Positions 4,674 through 24,314 of a stretch of DNA of 24,639 bases are shown piece by piece. The number at the start of each line of letters is the position of its first letter. The stretch's first letter is position 1. Position numbers and translations under genes: made by a program. Location: the IMG/VR virus record IMGVR_UViG_3300021599_000028, positions 1-24,639 of that record; one strand, 5' to 3'. The DNA is from a virus. The notes below the pieces were generated by a model, which was not told where the DNA came from, made no database searches, and was given only the letters and a program-made list of their open reading frames with translations.

Positions 4674-5321
4674 TTACTGCTTTACACACTGCTCTACGTT
4701 CTGTATATTGCTGCTTAAGAACATTTTAACCATGGTTAATGACTTTTCATCCTTAACATAAAAGTAATACCCGCCCCAACTATGCTCTTTAGACAACTGT
4801 GACGATGCACGTTTAGTTAACTTAACTTTATCCTTTCCACTACACCATTGTAAGAAGTTATTGTAGTTTTGTCTAGTTCTTCCCATAGTTACGCGATAAT
4901 CGTAATCTAAATTCTTTACAATAATCTTTTTATCTTCTAAGTTTGCTTCTGATCCGGGCGTTGGAACACTTACGTATTTTACACTGTCTACATTTACTTT
5001 GGCTAATTTTTCAATATCTGCTTTGTTATTTGTATAAAAGTTTATATAAGGACTTTCAATTCTAATAATAAAATCAGTCATCTTTTGCATAGCTGAAGTT
5101 AACTTAACAGCATATTCTATTTCCGTAGTAGTAATAGTCCTTGCCCAATGTGCATGAGTAGACATATCTTGTACTGCTGTCATTGTTTTAACGTGCTCTA
5201 AATCTGCGCCTCTAAACCAGCTGGCCGTTTTAGTGACAAGTACAATTTTGTATTTGTACTTGCCATTAAACAACTTAGTTGTTTGTTTGGTCTGTATTGA
5301 CAGTGCTAATTTCATTAACAA
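4674..5321 (-). CDS. Conserved phage protein (215 aa), unknown function, overlaps clpA-like gene
   Basis: The protein opens MLMKLALSIQTKQTTKLFNG and contains the blocks TASWFRGADLEHVKTM, ESPYINFYTNNKADIEKLAK, TMGRTRQNYNNFLQWC and SWGGYYFYVKDEKSLTMVKM. I recognise this block pattern as a conserved but uncharacterised protein of T4-like aquatic phages; there is no catalytic motif I can name. It is mixed alpha/beta, without signal peptide or membrane segment. Its start lies inside the 3' end of the clpA-like gene (47-base overlap, other frame), so translation of the two is probably coupled. It is the last gene before the terminator at 4619-4656. Co-expression with DnaJ- and ClpA-like proteins makes a partner or adaptor role possible, but this is only context. 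Confidence 0.75.
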   Translation of the reverse strand: MLMKLALSIQTKQTTKLFNGKYKYKIVLVTKTASWFRGADLEHVKTMTAVQDMSTHAHWARTITTTEIEYAVKLTSAMQKMTDFIIRIESPYINFYTNNKADIEKLAKVNVDSVKYVSVPTPGSEANLEDKKIIVKNLDYDYRVTMGRTRQNYNNFLQWCSGKDKVKLTKRASSQLSKEHSWGGYYFYVKDEKSLTMVKMFLSSNIQNVEQCVKQ

Positions 5322-7551
5322 TTACCTTTGGAGTTTTTGGCTTTGCAGTTAACGTTAGAGCGCCATCTGTAACTCCAATGCTCAACATTCCTCCACCTTT
5401 TAAGTCACCAAACAACATTAGTTTAGCCAGCGGACGTTTAATGTCCTTGTCAATGACACGCTGTAACGGTCGAGCACCCATCTTAGCATCAAAGCCTTTT
5501 TCGATTAACCAATCAATTGCTTCATCAGCAATTTTAATCTTGATGCCTTTTTCTTTAACTTGCTCACGCACTTCGACCATAAACTTACCAACAATTTTGA
5601 TCATAGTTTCTTTAGTTAACTTACCAAAGGTTACAACACCATCTAGACGATTTCGGAACTCAGGAGCAAAGAACTTTTTAAGTGCTTCGTCACTATACTG
5701 CTTTTCCTGTTGACCAAATCCAATCTGATTCTTTTCAGAGTCACTAGCGCCAGCATTAGTAGTAATGATTAGAATCAAATTACGGCAATCTGCTTTCTTA
5801 CCATTAGATCCTGTGACAAATCCATTGTCCATCATCTGCAACAGAATAGTAGAAACATCAGGATGTGACTTTTCGATCTCGTCTAACAATAATACACAGT
5901 TAGGATTTTCTTGTACTTGTGTAATTAACAAGCCAGCATTTTCTTCAAAGCCTACATATCCCGGAGGGGATCCAATCAGCTTACTAACTGAATGCTTTTC
6001 TTGATACTCACTCATATCAAAACGCACAAGTTTAACACCTAGATTCTTAGCAAGTGATTTAGCAGTTTCTGTTTTACCAGTACCTGTTGGACCCATAAAC
6101 ACAAACGCACCTACTGGACGATTCTCTGCTTTCAACCCAGCTTGGCTAACAAGAATCTTGTCAACAATTTCTGTAATAGCAGTTTCTTGTCCGTAAACTT
6201 CTTGTTGTAAGTTAGCTTCAAGATTTGCAAGATTTGTAGATTCTTGTTCTGCAATCTTCTCAGTAGGCATATTAACTACCTTAGCAAGCTCATATTGAAT
6301 AGCTGCCTCGTCGACTACTTTATCTTCGGCAATTTTTAAATTAAAACGTGAACATGCAAGATCAATTAAATCAATTGCTTTATCAGGCAACTTTTTATCT
6401 GTTTGATATTTAATGCTAAGTTTTACGGCTGCTTGAATAGCATCATCTTTAATTTTAACATTGTGATGTTGTTCGTAATACTTCTTAATGCCTTTAAGAA
6501 TCTGTACTGCCATTTCTGGAGTAGGTTCATCAACAGTAATACGAGCAAATCGGCGCATCAATGCACGATCCTTTTCGAAGTACTTGCGATATTCTTCCCA
6601 TGTAGTTGAGGCAATAACTTTAATGTTACCTTTACTTAATGCTGGTTTCATCATATTAGCAAGATCATTACTACTTTGTTGTCCGCCTGCACCTGCACCG
6701 CTAATCATGTGTGCTTCATCGATGAACAATACAGTCTTACCTTTCTTGTCAAGGCCTTTAAGAACTAACTTAAAGCGTTCTTCAAAGTCTCCACGATACT
6801 TACTACCAGCAAGCATAGCACTAATGTCTAAGTTGTAAACAGTGTATTCTTTTAAGAAGTCAGGAACAGCACCTTTGACAATGTTGTAGGCAAGTCCTTC
6901 TGCAATAGCAGTCTTACCAACACCTGGATCACCAACTAGAATCACATTGCTTTTACTACGACGACCTAACGACAAGGCAATATTTTCTAATTCGTCAACA
7001 CGCCCGATAACTGGATCAACTTTATTCTTTTTAACTGAATCATTAAGATTAGTTGTAAAGGCTTTTAGGGCTCTTTCACTTTGTCCATCACGTGGATCAT
7101 CTTCTGCTTCTGTTTCTTGAATATCGCTATTCAAATAATCGGCAAATTTATCTTTATCAATTTCTGCTTGAGCAATATAATAGTGAGCATAGCTACGCTT
7201 TTCGCTCATGATAGCAAGAAAAACATCAGTAGGTTCGATCTTCTGACGTCCGTTAAACAGAACTTGTGTAAACGCACGATTTAATACACGTTCAACAGCT
7301 TGTGTCTTACGTGGCTTAGTATCAACTTCTTCAGTAATAATTTCGTCACATTTATTTTTAAGGTACAGCTCTAGATTCTTTTTAAGAAAATCAGCATCGG
7401 CACCATATCCAGTAACGCACTTGTTAAATGATTCCTCACATAGCATTGCAAAAAGCAAATGTTCTATAGTTAAGTATTCATGTTTAAGTTTTTTAGCTAC
7501 ATCAATAGCTTTTTCGAATACCTGTTGCAATTCGCCACTCGGTTCTACCAT
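5275..7551 (-). CDS. clpA: ClpA-like AAA+ unfoldase with ClpP-docking loop
   Basis: The 758-aa protein has the ClpA layout: an N-terminal Clp repeat domain (about 1-145), a first AAA+ module with Walker A GDPGVGKT (207-214), Walker B VLFIDEAH (274-281) and arginine finger region RALMRRFARI (329-338), and a second module with GPTGTGKT (487-494), VLLLDEIE (553-560) and sensor-2 GARPLQR (692-698). There is no ClpB-type middle coiled coil, so it is an unfoldase rather than a disaggregase. At 610-612 it has IGF, at the place where ClpA has IGL and ClpX has IGF, the tripeptide that docks on ClpP. No clpP is in the window, so it may drive the host ClpP (inference). A Shine-Dalgarno AGAGGAAA supports the ATG. 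It is 17 bases downstream of the dnaJ-like gene. Confidence 0.95.
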   Translation of the reverse strand: MVEPSGELQQVFEKAIDVAKKLKHEYLTIEHLLFAMLCEESFNKCVTGYGADADFLKKNLELYLKNKCDEIITEEVDTKPRKTQAVERVLNRAFTQVLFNGRQKIEPTDVFLAIMSEKRSYAHYYIAQAEIDKDKFADYLNSDIQETEAEDDPRDGQSERALKAFTTNLNDSVKKNKVDPVIGRVDELENIALSLGRRSKSNVILVGDPGVGKTAIAEGLAYNIVKGAVPDFLKEYTVYNLDISAMLAGSKYRGDFEERFKLVLKGLDKKGKTVLFIDEAHMISGAGAGGQQSSNDLANMMKPALSKGNIKVIASTTWEEYRKYFEKDRALMRRFARITVDEPTPEMAVQILKGIKKYYEQHHNVKIKDDAIQAAVKLSIKYQTDKKLPDKAIDLIDLACSRFNLKIAEDKVVDEAAIQYELAKVVNMPTEKIAEQESTNLANLEANLQQEVYGQETAITEIVDKILVSQAGLKAENRPVGAFVFMGPTGTGKTETAKSLAKNLGVKLVRFDMSEYQEKHSVSKLIGSPPGYVGFEENAGLLITQVQENPNCVLLLDEIEKSHPDVSTILLQMMDNGFVTGSNGKKADCRNLILIITTNAGASDSEKNQIGFGQQEKQYSDEALKKFFAPEFRNRLDGVVTFGKLTKETMIKIVGKFMVEVREQVKEKGIKIKIADEAIDWLIEKGFDAKMGARPLQRVIDKDIKRPLAKLMLFGDLKGGGMLSIGVTDGALTLTAKPKTPKVIVNEISTVNTDQTNN

Positions 7552-7568: not shown

Positions 7569-8411
7569 TTAAGTTGTTTTTATAATTTTAGCATAGAGTG
7601 TTTCGAACTCTTGCCTTAATTGGCTATCTGTAATAGCAGGGATTTCTACGTGGAGGATTACGACAAGTTTGCCTTGCATGTGTGAGTTAAGATCTCTGAA
7701 CCCTTTCCCTCCTACAGCAAACTCTGCTCCAGAATGAATACCTGCTCTAATCTTAAGAGGAATTAATGATCCGTCTAAGGAAGTAACTTCTTTAATACAG
7801 CCTGTCATAGCCTCGAGAATAGAGATATTGAATATTGTTACAAGATCATTTCCTCTTCTTTCCCATACAGGGTCGGGCTCAACTATAACAGTAACATTTA
7901 AATTTCCTCTAGGCAAATTAGGAATAGAATCATCTCCAAGATCGGCATATCGAATAGTCTGTCCTGTTTGTACCCCTTGAGGAACATCAACCACTACTGT
8001 TTGTGCTCTTCCAGTTGGTGTGTTAAATCTTGCTTCAATTTGAGTTCCTGTATAACTTTGTTTAAGTGTTATACTAACTCTGATTGAAAGATCTCTATTT
8101 CGGCGTTGTTGTCGAAACCCACCAAACGGATTCCCACCACCGAACCCAAATGCTGTTCCAAATATATCATTGATATCTTGGAATCCATGGGTGCCACTAC
8201 GTGCTTGAGCAAACGGGTTATTTTTTTGAGCATCATATTGTTGACGCTTCTGATCATCGCCTAATGTGTCGTAGGCTTGTGAGATTTCTTGAAATTTCTG
8301 TGTATCGCCGCCACGATCAGGATGATTCTTCATGGCCAACTTTTTGTAGGCCTTTTTGATATCATCCTGACTTGCGTTTTCAGCTACACCTAGTATTTTA
8401 TAATAGTCCAT
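7569..8411 (-). CDS. dnaJ: DnaJ-like co-chaperone (class B, CbpA type)
   Basis: The 280-aa protein has a complete J domain (1-64) with HPD at 30-32, a Gly/Phe-rich linker (about 70-105, FGTAFGFGGGNPFGGF) and two C-terminal beta-domains (about 110-275). The Cys-rich zinc repeats of class A DnaJ are absent. J proteins stimulate Hsp70 (DnaK) ATPase and deliver clients; no dnaK is in the window, so host DnaK is the likely partner. I chose the ATG at 8411 (MDYYKILGV). A GTG 18 bases upstream overlaps the -10 box and would add six unusual residues. The ATG lies six bases after a perfect TATAAT and has no Shine-Dalgarno sequence. It heads the dnaJ-clpA-215aa unit. Confidence 0.9.
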   Translation of the reverse strand: MDYYKILGVAENASQDDIKKAYKKLAMKNHPDRGGDTQKFQEISQAYDTLGDDQKRQQYDAQKNNPFAQARSGTHGFQDINDIFGTAFGFGGGNPFGGFRQQRRNRDLSIRVSITLKQSYTGTQIEARFNTPTGRAQTVVVDVPQGVQTGQTIRYADLGDDSIPNLPRGNLNVTVIVEPDPVWERRGNDLVTIFNISILEAMTGCIKEVTSLDGSLIPLKIRAGIHSGAEFAVGGKGFRDLNSHMQGKLVVILHVEIPAITDSQLRQEFETLYAKIIKTT

Positions 8412-8446
8412 AGTACTATTATATAGCACTATAAACTAAATGTCAA
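8412..8446 (-). promoter_or_regulatory. Consensus sigma-70 promoter of the dnaJ-clpA unit (leaderless)
   Basis: The minus strand has TTGACA (8446-8441), a 17-base spacer and TATAAT (8423-8418), followed by AGTACT and then ATG. All twelve consensus bases match. With usual spacing the first transcribed base would be at or next to the A of the ATG at 8411, giving a leaderless mRNA. The -35 box overlaps the end of the holin-candidate gene. Confidence 0.85.
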
Positions 8447-21683: not shown

Positions 21684-21856
21684 TACAGAGTCCTTCTAAT
21701 TCTTCTTCTAGGATAAACTGCTCCGCTAGTAGGCCTAGGTTGGTAGTTAAGTTTTGGAAATGTATTTCCTGACGTTGGACGTTCTTTATAATAATATAAA
21801 AATAAATTAGCTGAACCTTGTAGATCTTGTCCGTCTGCAGGACCATTCGAGTTAGT
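21683..21856 (-). other. Out-of-frame C-terminal extension of the S8 protease gene
   Basis: The S8 frame stops at 21852-21854, but the +1 frame from 21856 codes for 57 residues without start codon: TNSNGPADGQDLQGSANLFL, then YYYKERPTSGNTFPKLNYQP and RPTSGAVYPRRRIRRTL. Its composition is protein-like. I recall comparable LQGS…YYKERPxSGxxFPKxNYxxRP endings in phage virion proteins. It ends TAATG exactly on the start of the 983-aa gene, as other gene pairs here do. It is therefore probably the true C-terminus, joined by a +1 shift somewhere between about 21887 and 21856, or separated by a mutation or a sequencing error. Confidence 0.7.
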
Positions 21857-24314
21857 AGTTATTTGCCGCCTTGGCTTGTGCCTGATTCATATTAGGATAT
21901 ATTTCCAACGCACATGCTAGAACTCCGCACACCTGCGGGCTTGCCATACTGGTTCCGCTATACTTTCCTAAATAATATCCTGACTCTCTAGGATCGCTAA
22001 CTCCACTGGGTAATGCACTGATAATATGCGTACCGGGAGCATATAAATCTACTCCTGGACCACAGTCACTATACTGTACCTTTTGATCTGTGGATATAGA
22101 GTCAATTGATCCCACACATATTGCCGGCATTTCAAAACCGCCACCGGCAGCAGTATCGTTAGCAGTAGGACTAGTTCCTCTCATATAGTAATAAGGATTA
22201 GCTACACTATCGGGATATCTAGTAGCCATCTCAAATCTGTTGTTCCAGTCCAGCCCACCCGGCACATCATGTTTCCACCGACCGTTACCAGCAGCACCTA
22301 CCATGATAATACCTTCTGAGTATAATTCTTCAATGTCTGCATCAGCGGCTGAAACTCTAGCAGGAATACGCTGACCACTGATGAATCCCCACGCATTTAA
22401 TTGTTCAGTAGTAAATGCGCCAGTTGTTTTTCTAGAATTTACACCTACTTGTAAATCAATCTGGTCTGGAGTAGCTTCGTAGAATACATACTCGCAAACC
22501 ATAGTTGGAGATCCTAATACTCCAGACGTACTTGCAGCCCCTTCCATTCTTATATTAAATGTTCTGCTTCCTGCAGTGCCTTGTGTAGTGTAATAAATTC
22601 TCTGCACACTGTTATCAGCAGCACTCCACATGATTTTAGGAAGATTAGGAGAACTTTGATTAACTGTTGACCATACTGTAGAACCTGCTCCGAATGTTAG
22701 ATAGAAGTTTGTGCTAGGATATATTTCATTATAAGTAGTTCCAAGATAAGTTATAGGAAACGGTAAAGCTAAATTCCAGTAGCCGTCATCATTGTTACCT
22801 ACAGTTGGAGTAGTTGAAGACGTCCATCCGCCAGTACTAGATAAGGTATTAGTTATACTGCTAACAGATGCTGCTGCTGGTGTACTTTCTGTTACTACGA
22901 TCAAACTCAATGCCGAAGCAAACAATACTGAACCAGCGCCGCTAATATCGATAGTATTATTAAATGTGATAGTATACACTGCTGTATCAGGTAAGTTAAT
23001 AGTTTCTCGAATGTCAGTTTCTAATGTACCACCATTACTTGTTGATCCTGCATCTTGTGTGTAAGTCTGCACGGGAGTCGCACCTTGAGTGATAACAATA
23101 GAACTGCTTAGTGACATTGTACCTGAAACAGCATCCATTGCAACATTATTAATCAACTCTAAATCAGCTGGACCTTGTACTGTAATGGTATAACTTGCAT
23201 TAGGTTGTGACAGTTCAGTAAAATATGCCTGCTCTCCAGTTTGCGTCCATGAGGCCGGTTTAGTTAAGATGATGCCGCCTGGTGGCGTATAAGGCCCGGT
23301 AGTTGTTATTCTGTTTCCGGCATTTTCAAATCCAACTAGGGTTGCTAATCTTGCATTAGAAGTACACACACCGCTGAAACCTGTGTAAACTGTTGAACCT
23401 GCAGGAGTGTATCTAGTCCCTCTATAGGTTACAGCAGTAATATCAGTTAATGACCATTCGCTTGGAAAAATACTTTGTCCCCAACTGTTGTTAACAATAG
23501 TAGGATTTTTTCTACCTGTAGCATTATTAATTGTTTTATTTCGATGGAATGCTCTTATGTAATCAAAAACATAACTAAAGTTGCCAGGATTTCCAGTATC
23601 ATAATATAGATTATAAATGTTAGCACTACGAGCCCAGCCTTGTGTATTGCCAGCAACTGTTCCTGCTACGTGCGTTGAGTGATCCCCAACTCCATACGTA
23701 TAAGTACTATTCACACCATTGCCTATTTCGGCACTATGTTGATACCAATTGTATTGAATGGCCCTAGTACCACCAGTGCCGTCATCATTGACTTCAAAAT
23801 CTGGATGATTCCATACAAGGCCATTAAGGTCACAGATTACTACATCAACATTACGACCAGTTTGAGTTAGAGTAATAGTTCCAGTTTGTGCAGGAGTACC
23901 TGTTCCGCCACCTTGATATCCGGTACCACCCCATCCTGAACGTTGCACTCCTTCGGTACACCTTAGCAATCCCCAGTTCTTCATAGCTGAGCCAGTGCTA
24001 GTTGACTTATCCCATGCTGTACTAGTTTGCTCAAATGCCGTTGTGCCTGCTTTAATACCTAAATATTGAGGAGCAATTGAAATTGTTTTAATTCTCGGAT
24101 CGTTTCGTAATTCTTCTACTTCTAAATCCGTTAACAAGTAATGAGTATTTCTACTGGTAGTTCTACGATGTAAGCAGTCTACACTTCTTAATAGATTAAT
24201 ACCTGCAGGACTCTTACCTTCAGTTTCTAAATCAGCATAAATGCTATCTAAATCTTCGAAGTTATTAACAGTTACAATATATTCTTTTCTTTTAATGTAA
24301 TCTGATATAGACAT
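21852..24314 (-). CDS. Virion-type subtilisin-like serine protease (S8) with large insertion
   Basis: The 820-aa frame has a complete subtilase triad: Asp162 (DVVICDLNGLVW), His212 (GDHSTHVAGTVAG), oxyanion Asn677 (GAAGNGRWK) and Ser789 (SGTSMASPQVCG). Residues 1-85 resemble a propeptide. Between the His and the Asn blocks about 350 extra residues are inserted. They include a beta-rich region (TYTQDAGSTSNGGTLETDI) and a module WNLALPFPITYLGTTYNEIY to QIDLQVGVNS, a type I associate with phage structural proteins. It lies among virion genes and has no signal peptide, so it is probably part of the particle, perhaps maturing tail proteins or digesting host surface protein. The frame ends early at NNY; a continuation lies in another frame. 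Confidence 0.9.
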   Translation of the reverse strand: MSISDYIKRKEYIVTVNNFEDLDSIYADLETEGKSPAGINLLRSVDCLHRRTTSRNTHYLLTDLEVEELRNDPRIKTISIAPQYLGIKAGTTAFEQTSTAWDKSTSTGSAMKNWGLLRCTEGVQRSGWGGTGYQGGGTGTPAQTGTITLTQTGRNVDVVICDLNGLVWNHPDFEVNDDGTGGTRAIQYNWYQHSAEIGNGVNSTYTYGVGDHSTHVAGTVAGNTQGWARSANIYNLYYDTGNPGNFSYVFDYIRAFHRNKTINNATGRKNPTIVNNSWGQSIFPSEWSLTDITAVTYRGTRYTPAGSTVYTGFSGVCTSNARLATLVGFENAGNRITTTGPYTPPGGIILTKPASWTQTGEQAYFTELSQPNASYTITVQGPADLELINNVAMDAVSGTMSLSSSIVITQGATPVQTYTQDAGSTSNGGTLETDIRETINLPDTAVYTITFNNTIDISGAGSVLFASALSLIVVTESTPAAASVSSITNTLSSTGGWTSSTTPTVGNNDDGYWNLALPFPITYLGTTYNEIYPSTNFYLTFGAGSTVWSTVNQSSPNLPKIMWSAADNSVQRIYYTTQGTAGSRTFNIRMEGAASTSGVLGSPTMVCEYVFYEATPDQIDLQVGVNSRKTTGAFTTEQLNAWGFISGQRIPARVSAADADIEELYSEGIIMVGAAGNGRWKHDVPGGLDWNNRFEMATRYPDSVANPYYYMRGTSPTANDTAAGGGFEMPAICVGSIDSISTDQKVQYSDCGPGVDLYAPGTHIISALPSGVSDPRESGYYLGKYSGTSMASPQVCGVLACALEIYPNMNQAQAKAANNY

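Follow-up and report, generated by a model that had tools for sequence, protein, structure and literature searches.

The gene at positions 5275 to 7551 of the window, as we call the whole 24.6-kb virus fragment analysed here, encodes an intact ClpA-type unfoldase of 758 aa with a conserved IGF tripeptide, and this protein is probably the unfoldase component of a phage-encoded ClpA-ClpP-ClpS protease accompanied by chaperones. The fragment derives from a large freshwater virus of bacteria, close relatives of which encode ClpP and ClpS and share a conserved order of the DnaJ and ClpA genes. In the proposed scheme, the jumbo-phage genome would also encode, away from clpA, a ClpP whose hydrophobic clefts serve as docking sites for the IGF loops of ClpA hexamers; substrates would be recognised either by ClpA directly or via a phage ClpS serving as N-degron adaptor, and then threaded into ClpP. 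A phage DnaJ (the adjacent gene), DnaK and a small heat-shock protein would stand beside ClpA in a proteostasis set. From the sequences of its relatives we infer that the window's own phage carries clpP and clpS and that ClpA, ClpP and ClpS assemble with one another. This complex may serve protein turnover and quality control in the infected cell.

The ClpA gene and its docking loop

The open reading frame lies on the minus strand (7551 to 5275), a point that an earlier note on this DNA did not state, and the plus strand across 5275-7551 was rejected as coding on account of its 35 stops. That note had described a full-length, 758-aa unfoldase with two AAA modules, and the description holds, as the reading frame is intact and both pairs of Walker A and Walker B motifs are present, together with the KYRG and GYVG pore loops. 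The N-domain (Clp_N, residues about 1-141; 7129 to 7551) is recognised by Pfam PF02861 at residues 17-64 (E 2.8e-7), and E. coli ClpA N-domain structures align with residues 7-141. By alignment, the first AAA+ module (D1) contains the Walker A motif GDPGVGKT (residues 207-214; 6910 to 6933), the pore-1 loop KYRG (residues 251-254; 6790 to 6801) and the Walker B motif LFIDE (residues 275-279; 6715 to 6729), and the second (D2) contains GPTGTGKT (Walker A, residues 487-494; 6070 to 6093), GYVG (pore-1 loop, residues 531-534; 5950 to 5961) and LLLDE (Walker B, residues 554-558; 5878 to 5892), all on the minus strand. An N-domain joined to two complete AAA+ modules with Walker A and B motifs places the protein with ClpA (Hsp100 class I).

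Family profiles, sequence and fold agree that ClpA and ClpC are the closest relatives; E. coli ClpA is the top PDB match (E 2e-200), and PHROG 4871 is matched at 837 bits. The NCBIfam ClpA model TIGR02639 scores 874 bits, short of its equivalog cut-off of 993 and yet the best of all models, and NF008263 scores 744 bits against a cut-off of 1350. Because of these scores the protein is filed as ClpA-type, in a viral clade, rather than as an orthologue of bacterial ClpA; scores of this kind would fit a divergent viral branch. A middle domain of the ClpB/ClpC type is absent, D1 running into D2 collinearly with E. coli ClpA and without insertion. A ClpB/Hsp104 disaggregase was rejected, since the coiled-coil middle domain is missing and IGF is present, and identity with ClpC was rejected because the phage clade is separate from ClpC in the tree.

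This tree (46 rows, mixture model) was built with most long rows left out, a first quick tree having given long-branch warnings. The 15 phage ClpAs form one clade (bootstrap 100, SH-aLRT 99) apart from every bacterial ClpA and ClpC in the sample, so that the tree points to no particular host; PAC2 is on a long branch, the bacterial rows are a sample among the matches listed, and the exact placement of the clade is unsure. As the closest phage ClpA, 'Acinetobacter phage MD-2021a' (CAKLQF020000008.1 / CAKLQH020000043.1, L092) was rejected: its clpS-clpA pair lies among argC, rpiA and fadH, so that the record is probably bacterial chromosome.

The IGF tripeptide (residues 610-612; 5716 to 5724, minus strand) lies in a flexible loop and aligns with IGL in the E. 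coli protein. The earlier note had set it against ClpA at large, 'where ClpA has IGL', which is true of E. coli and Erwinia but not in general, because 37 of 39 sampled bacterial ClpAs have xGF (27 IGF, 10 another xGF) and the two with IGL are both enterobacterial. The idea of IGF as an oddity was therefore dropped, this being the usual bacterial form in the sample, and a phage ClpA with IGF is, taken alone, an ordinary observation. What is informative is its retention. Among the 87 phage sequences that cover the docking site, which are not independent of each other, IGF occurs in 83, IGV in two, and IGY and VGF in one each; one further row of the phage alignment, outside the 87, has a gap there. 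Mean conservation is 0.985 for IGF vs 0.714 for the remaining loop, and an IG[FVY] or VGF tripeptide is kept by seven GenBank phage ClpAs with 36-42% identity to the query. In the predicted model, pLDDT falls below 50 only in short stretches, among them the region of the D1 pore-2 loop, the D2 pore-1 loop and residues 606-618, as would be expected for mobile loops. Because IGF is kept amid a variable loop across relatives, ClpP docking is probably under selection, and the claim of docking on a ClpP is well supported by sequence, given also that the clade evolved apart from bacterial ClpA.

ClpP, ClpS and chaperones in related phages

As the earlier note had observed, the window has no clpP. 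Its genes run collinearly with the 255-295 kb region of a 383-kb phage contig (G001), which matches most of them in order and encodes a ClpA 82% identical to that of the window. ClpP was found in all eight ClpA records of at least 80 kb, this contig among them, and in the reverse direction, starting from ClpP, both ClpP contigs of more than 100 kb outside that set carry ClpA (75-77% identity). A ClpP with its catalytic residues is present in 10 of the 10 IMG/VR relatives whose sequence extends far enough, at a distance from clpA, computed from contig coordinates, of 30.2-56.6 kb, always upstream and on the same strand. The window extends 17.1 kb upstream of clpA, and none of the 12 tested records that lack ClpP extends beyond 49.7 kb on that side; the absence of the gene from the window therefore says nothing. 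The seven GenBank jumbo phages from the ClpA match list encode ClpP as well (7/7), a co-occurrence with ClpA and ClpS that spans only about five lineages. A phage-encoded ClpP elsewhere had been named as evidence against the earlier proposal; every long-enough relative supplies it, whereas the window's own fragment ends before the expected place, and ClpP in the same genome is thus seen in relatives of a phage whose own genome is known from 24.6 kb.

The roles of the catalytic and cleft residues of ClpP, and of the degron-pocket residues of ClpS discussed below, we take to be those established for the E. coli proteins. Ser97, His122 and Asp171 are present in all 15 aligned phage ClpPs. Changes from E. 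coli ClpP occur in the cleft, where Tyr60 is replaced by T, H or Q and Phe112 by K or R in most close relatives of the window, so that cross-docking of phage and host parts is not judgeable from sequence. The ClpP of the 383-kb contig passes the NCBIfam ClpP subfamily cut-off (292 bits vs 249) and fails that of the head-maturation protease model (100 bits vs 120). Since a separate gp21-type S77 prohead protease occurs in nine of nine genomes tested, ClpP is not needed as a head protease, and a head-maturation role was rejected on both grounds. The label 'head maturation protease' given to phage ClpP in NC_071039.1, NC_042013.1 and OR805292-OR805295 is probably a misannotation, given that the related genomes PAC2 and Atu_ph07 (MF403008) encode their S77 prohead protease separately.

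Some features of these ClpPs are recorded as side observations. In three phages (G008, G005 and G003; L087, L088 and L089) ClpP is a mosaic by comparison with L084 and L086, its N-terminal half being 81-95% identical to ClpP of G001 and G002 and its C-terminal half only 54-58%; a 10-aa insert follows the catalytic His, and the C-terminal half is closer to PA5oct-like ClpP (62%). The ClpAs of the same three phages have no such split. RaK2 (W04, 300235-304854) and Vibrio 2.275 (W05, 133423-155343) each have two or three ClpP-like genes, some of them partial family matches, and so do XaC1 (W07) and Phosso (W02); these extra genes are possibly second ClpP rings or other proteases.

The search for clpS beyond the window, which the earlier note had suggested, found ClpS in the three longest relatives (345-383 kb). 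In two of these (G001 and G002) it retains Asn34, Asp35, Thr38, Met40 and His66, which belong to the degron pocket in E. coli ClpS. A ClpS-like protein is present in 7/7 GenBank ClpA phages, above the cut-off in six and below it in XaC1. By tblastn, ClpS was matched in 18 of 50,697 phage records, and 15 of 15 phage genomes among the ClpS matches carry ClpA, two bacterial-looking records and one 4.9-kb faecal fragment being left out of this count. The ClpS-like proteins of RaK2, XaC1, Atu_ph07 and Vibrio 2.275 have lost His66 and other pocket residues, and N-degron binding is therefore not expected in every ClpA phage; from the residues kept, it would be expected in the window's lineage, Phosso, PA5oct-like phages and perhaps SCTP-2. 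Ten genomes contained no phage Aat transferase, so that N-degrons would need host enzymes or cleavage. DnaK is encoded by all three of the longest relatives and by none of the seven GenBank phages, and the gene order in G001 and G002 is DnaK-Hsp20-ClpS. In the 383-kb relative (L205:6479-9750) and a 364-kb relative (L207:8922-12210) the cluster continues, beside ClpS, with a 179-aa protein that has the look of a heme oxygenase by eye and no NCBIfam match.

Directly upstream of clpA in the window lies a gene for a DnaJ-like co-chaperone with a J-domain and a C-terminal domain (7569 to 8429, minus strand; Pfam). A DnaJ gene occupies this position in 68 of the 68 IMG/VR relatives whose sequence extends far enough to show it, and dnaJ adjoins clpA in PA5oct-like phages and Atu_ph07 as well; in Phosso a peptide deformylase gene lies between the two. 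On the other side, a gene for an uncharacterised 215-aa protein (4674 to 5321, minus strand) shares 47 bases with the 3' end of clpA and is found downstream of clpA in 80/80 relatives. The predicted model of this protein is confident (pLDDT 89) and has two alpha/beta domains; Pfam gave no match, sequence comparison with PHROG and the PDB no consistent one and tblastn against GenBank phages none, and by fold there were weak common-fold matches in the PDB, the closest folds being uncharacterised phage proteins. Its position alone makes it a candidate ClpA adaptor. Farther along the window, in the structural region, an 820-aa reading frame (21852-24314, minus strand) has the look of a subtilisin-type serine protease by eye.

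Partners and origin of the phage ClpA

The earlier note proposed that the phage ClpA diverts the host's ClpP towards selected substrates, for example host regulators or defence proteins; the sequences speak neither for nor against targets of that kind. IGF being a common bacterial ClpA form, docking on many bacterial ClpPs is plausible, and the window itself has no clpP; the proposal leaned on that absence, however, and is weakened for this reason. As stated it is unsupported, with ClpP in all 10 long IMG/VR relatives and all seven GenBank jumbo phages, and since every relative with enough sequence has its own ClpP, host ClpP is not needed as the sole partner. We therefore think a takeover of host ClpP unlikely. 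A mixed use of phage and host ClpP is possible, with host docking as an additional mode. The conserved docking tripeptide in a variable loop, the co-occurrence of clpP and clpS with clpA, and a D1 that passes into D2 as in ClpA, with no ClpB-type middle domain, argue against a ClpP-free unfoldase or translocase that would work with DnaJ and DnaK, for example in virion assembly or disaggregation. Such a role, in line with the translocase/assembly role proposed for jumbo-phage ClpA by Iyer et al. 2021 (PMC7824862) and with the constant DnaJ neighbour and the phage DnaK and Hsp20 of close relatives, seems improbable to us. Least credible is a recent acquisition of ClpA from a host, the gene persisting by chance or for a use under stress and IGF being merely inherited. 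Its 42-46% identity to bacterial ClpA could be read in that way, but the well-supported separation of the phage clade from all bacterial ClpA and ClpC sampled makes recent capture appear unlikely, and divergence within the clade is large while IGF persists; we hold this account to be very improbable.

Against a self-contained phage protease made up of ClpA, ClpP and ClpS it counts that clpP and clpS were seen in relatives and not in the window's own genome, that clpA and clpP do not share an operon, that some cleft residues of phage ClpP are changed relative to the E. coli protein, and that no Aat transferase is encoded. The preferred reading, a phage ClpA-ClpP-ClpS protease with chaperones, is nevertheless the one that we consider probable. 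A bolder version, in which ClpA, ClpP and a ClpS with intact pocket would form a private N-degron pathway, joined by DnaK-DnaJ-Hsp20 and by the 215-aa protein as a new ClpA adaptor, so that proteolysis would be independent of host ClpP, is rather doubtful.

Relation to known systems

The window protein has in common with E. coli ClpA, the unfoldase of ClpAPS, its domain order, ATPase motifs, pore loops, docking tripeptide, lack of a middle domain and length of 758 aa, and the partners ClpP and ClpS exist in its relatives. It differs in an identity of about 43%, a separate viral clade, scores below the NCBIfam equivalog cut-offs and IGF vs IGL; in the window's lineage, unlike E. coli, clpS lies apart from clpA, which is paired with dnaJ. 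The Agrobacterium jumbo phage Atu_ph07 (PMC6102473) is alike in encoding ClpA, ClpP, ClpS and DnaJ, with dnaJ next to clpA and its ClpA in the same clade, whereas ClpA identity is 39%, ClpX and ClpB are also annotated, its ClpS has no equivalents of His66 and Met40, and no DnaK was found. PA5oct-like Pseudomonas phages (Wroclawvirus) share the dnaJ-clpA pair, catalytic ClpP residues, ClpS degron-pocket residues and a nearby phoH, and differ in a ClpA identity of 41%, an insert-type C-terminal half of ClpP and the RefSeq name 'head maturation protease'. Moraphages (PMC12619734) are likewise large freshwater phages in which ClpA is common and DnaK, DnaJ and Hsp20 occur in some, but they are assigned Bacteroidota hosts and measure 200-307 kb, and ClpP and ClpS are not mentioned in the parts of that text searched.

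Clp genes in jumbo phages are already known from papers of 2018 and 2021. Attai et al. 2018 (PMC6102473) reported ClpA, ClpP, ClpS, ClpX, ClpB and DnaJ in Atu_ph07, remarked that RaK2-like phages conserve ClpA, and proposed roles in assembly, replication or the clearing of aggregates. Iyer et al. 2021 (PMC7824862) described ClpP in some jumbo phages and ClpS in 'several other phages instead', feeding host ClpAP, and viewed ClpA as a possible translocase. In the literature consulted, jumbo-phage ClpP, ClpS and ClpA are treated separately, or as stress and assembly genes (Attai et al. 2018); the present result differs in that in the genomes examined here ClpA is accompanied by both ClpP and ClpS. 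If the preferred reading is true, jumbo phages with a complete AAA+ protease and its adaptor would set the protein turnover of the infected cell without host ClpP, and ClpS would offer a concrete handle on the choice of proteins that are degraded. The co-occurrence of ClpA, ClpP and ClpS allows these genes to be tested together as a single hypothesis, and the phages concerned are common in freshwater metagenomes.
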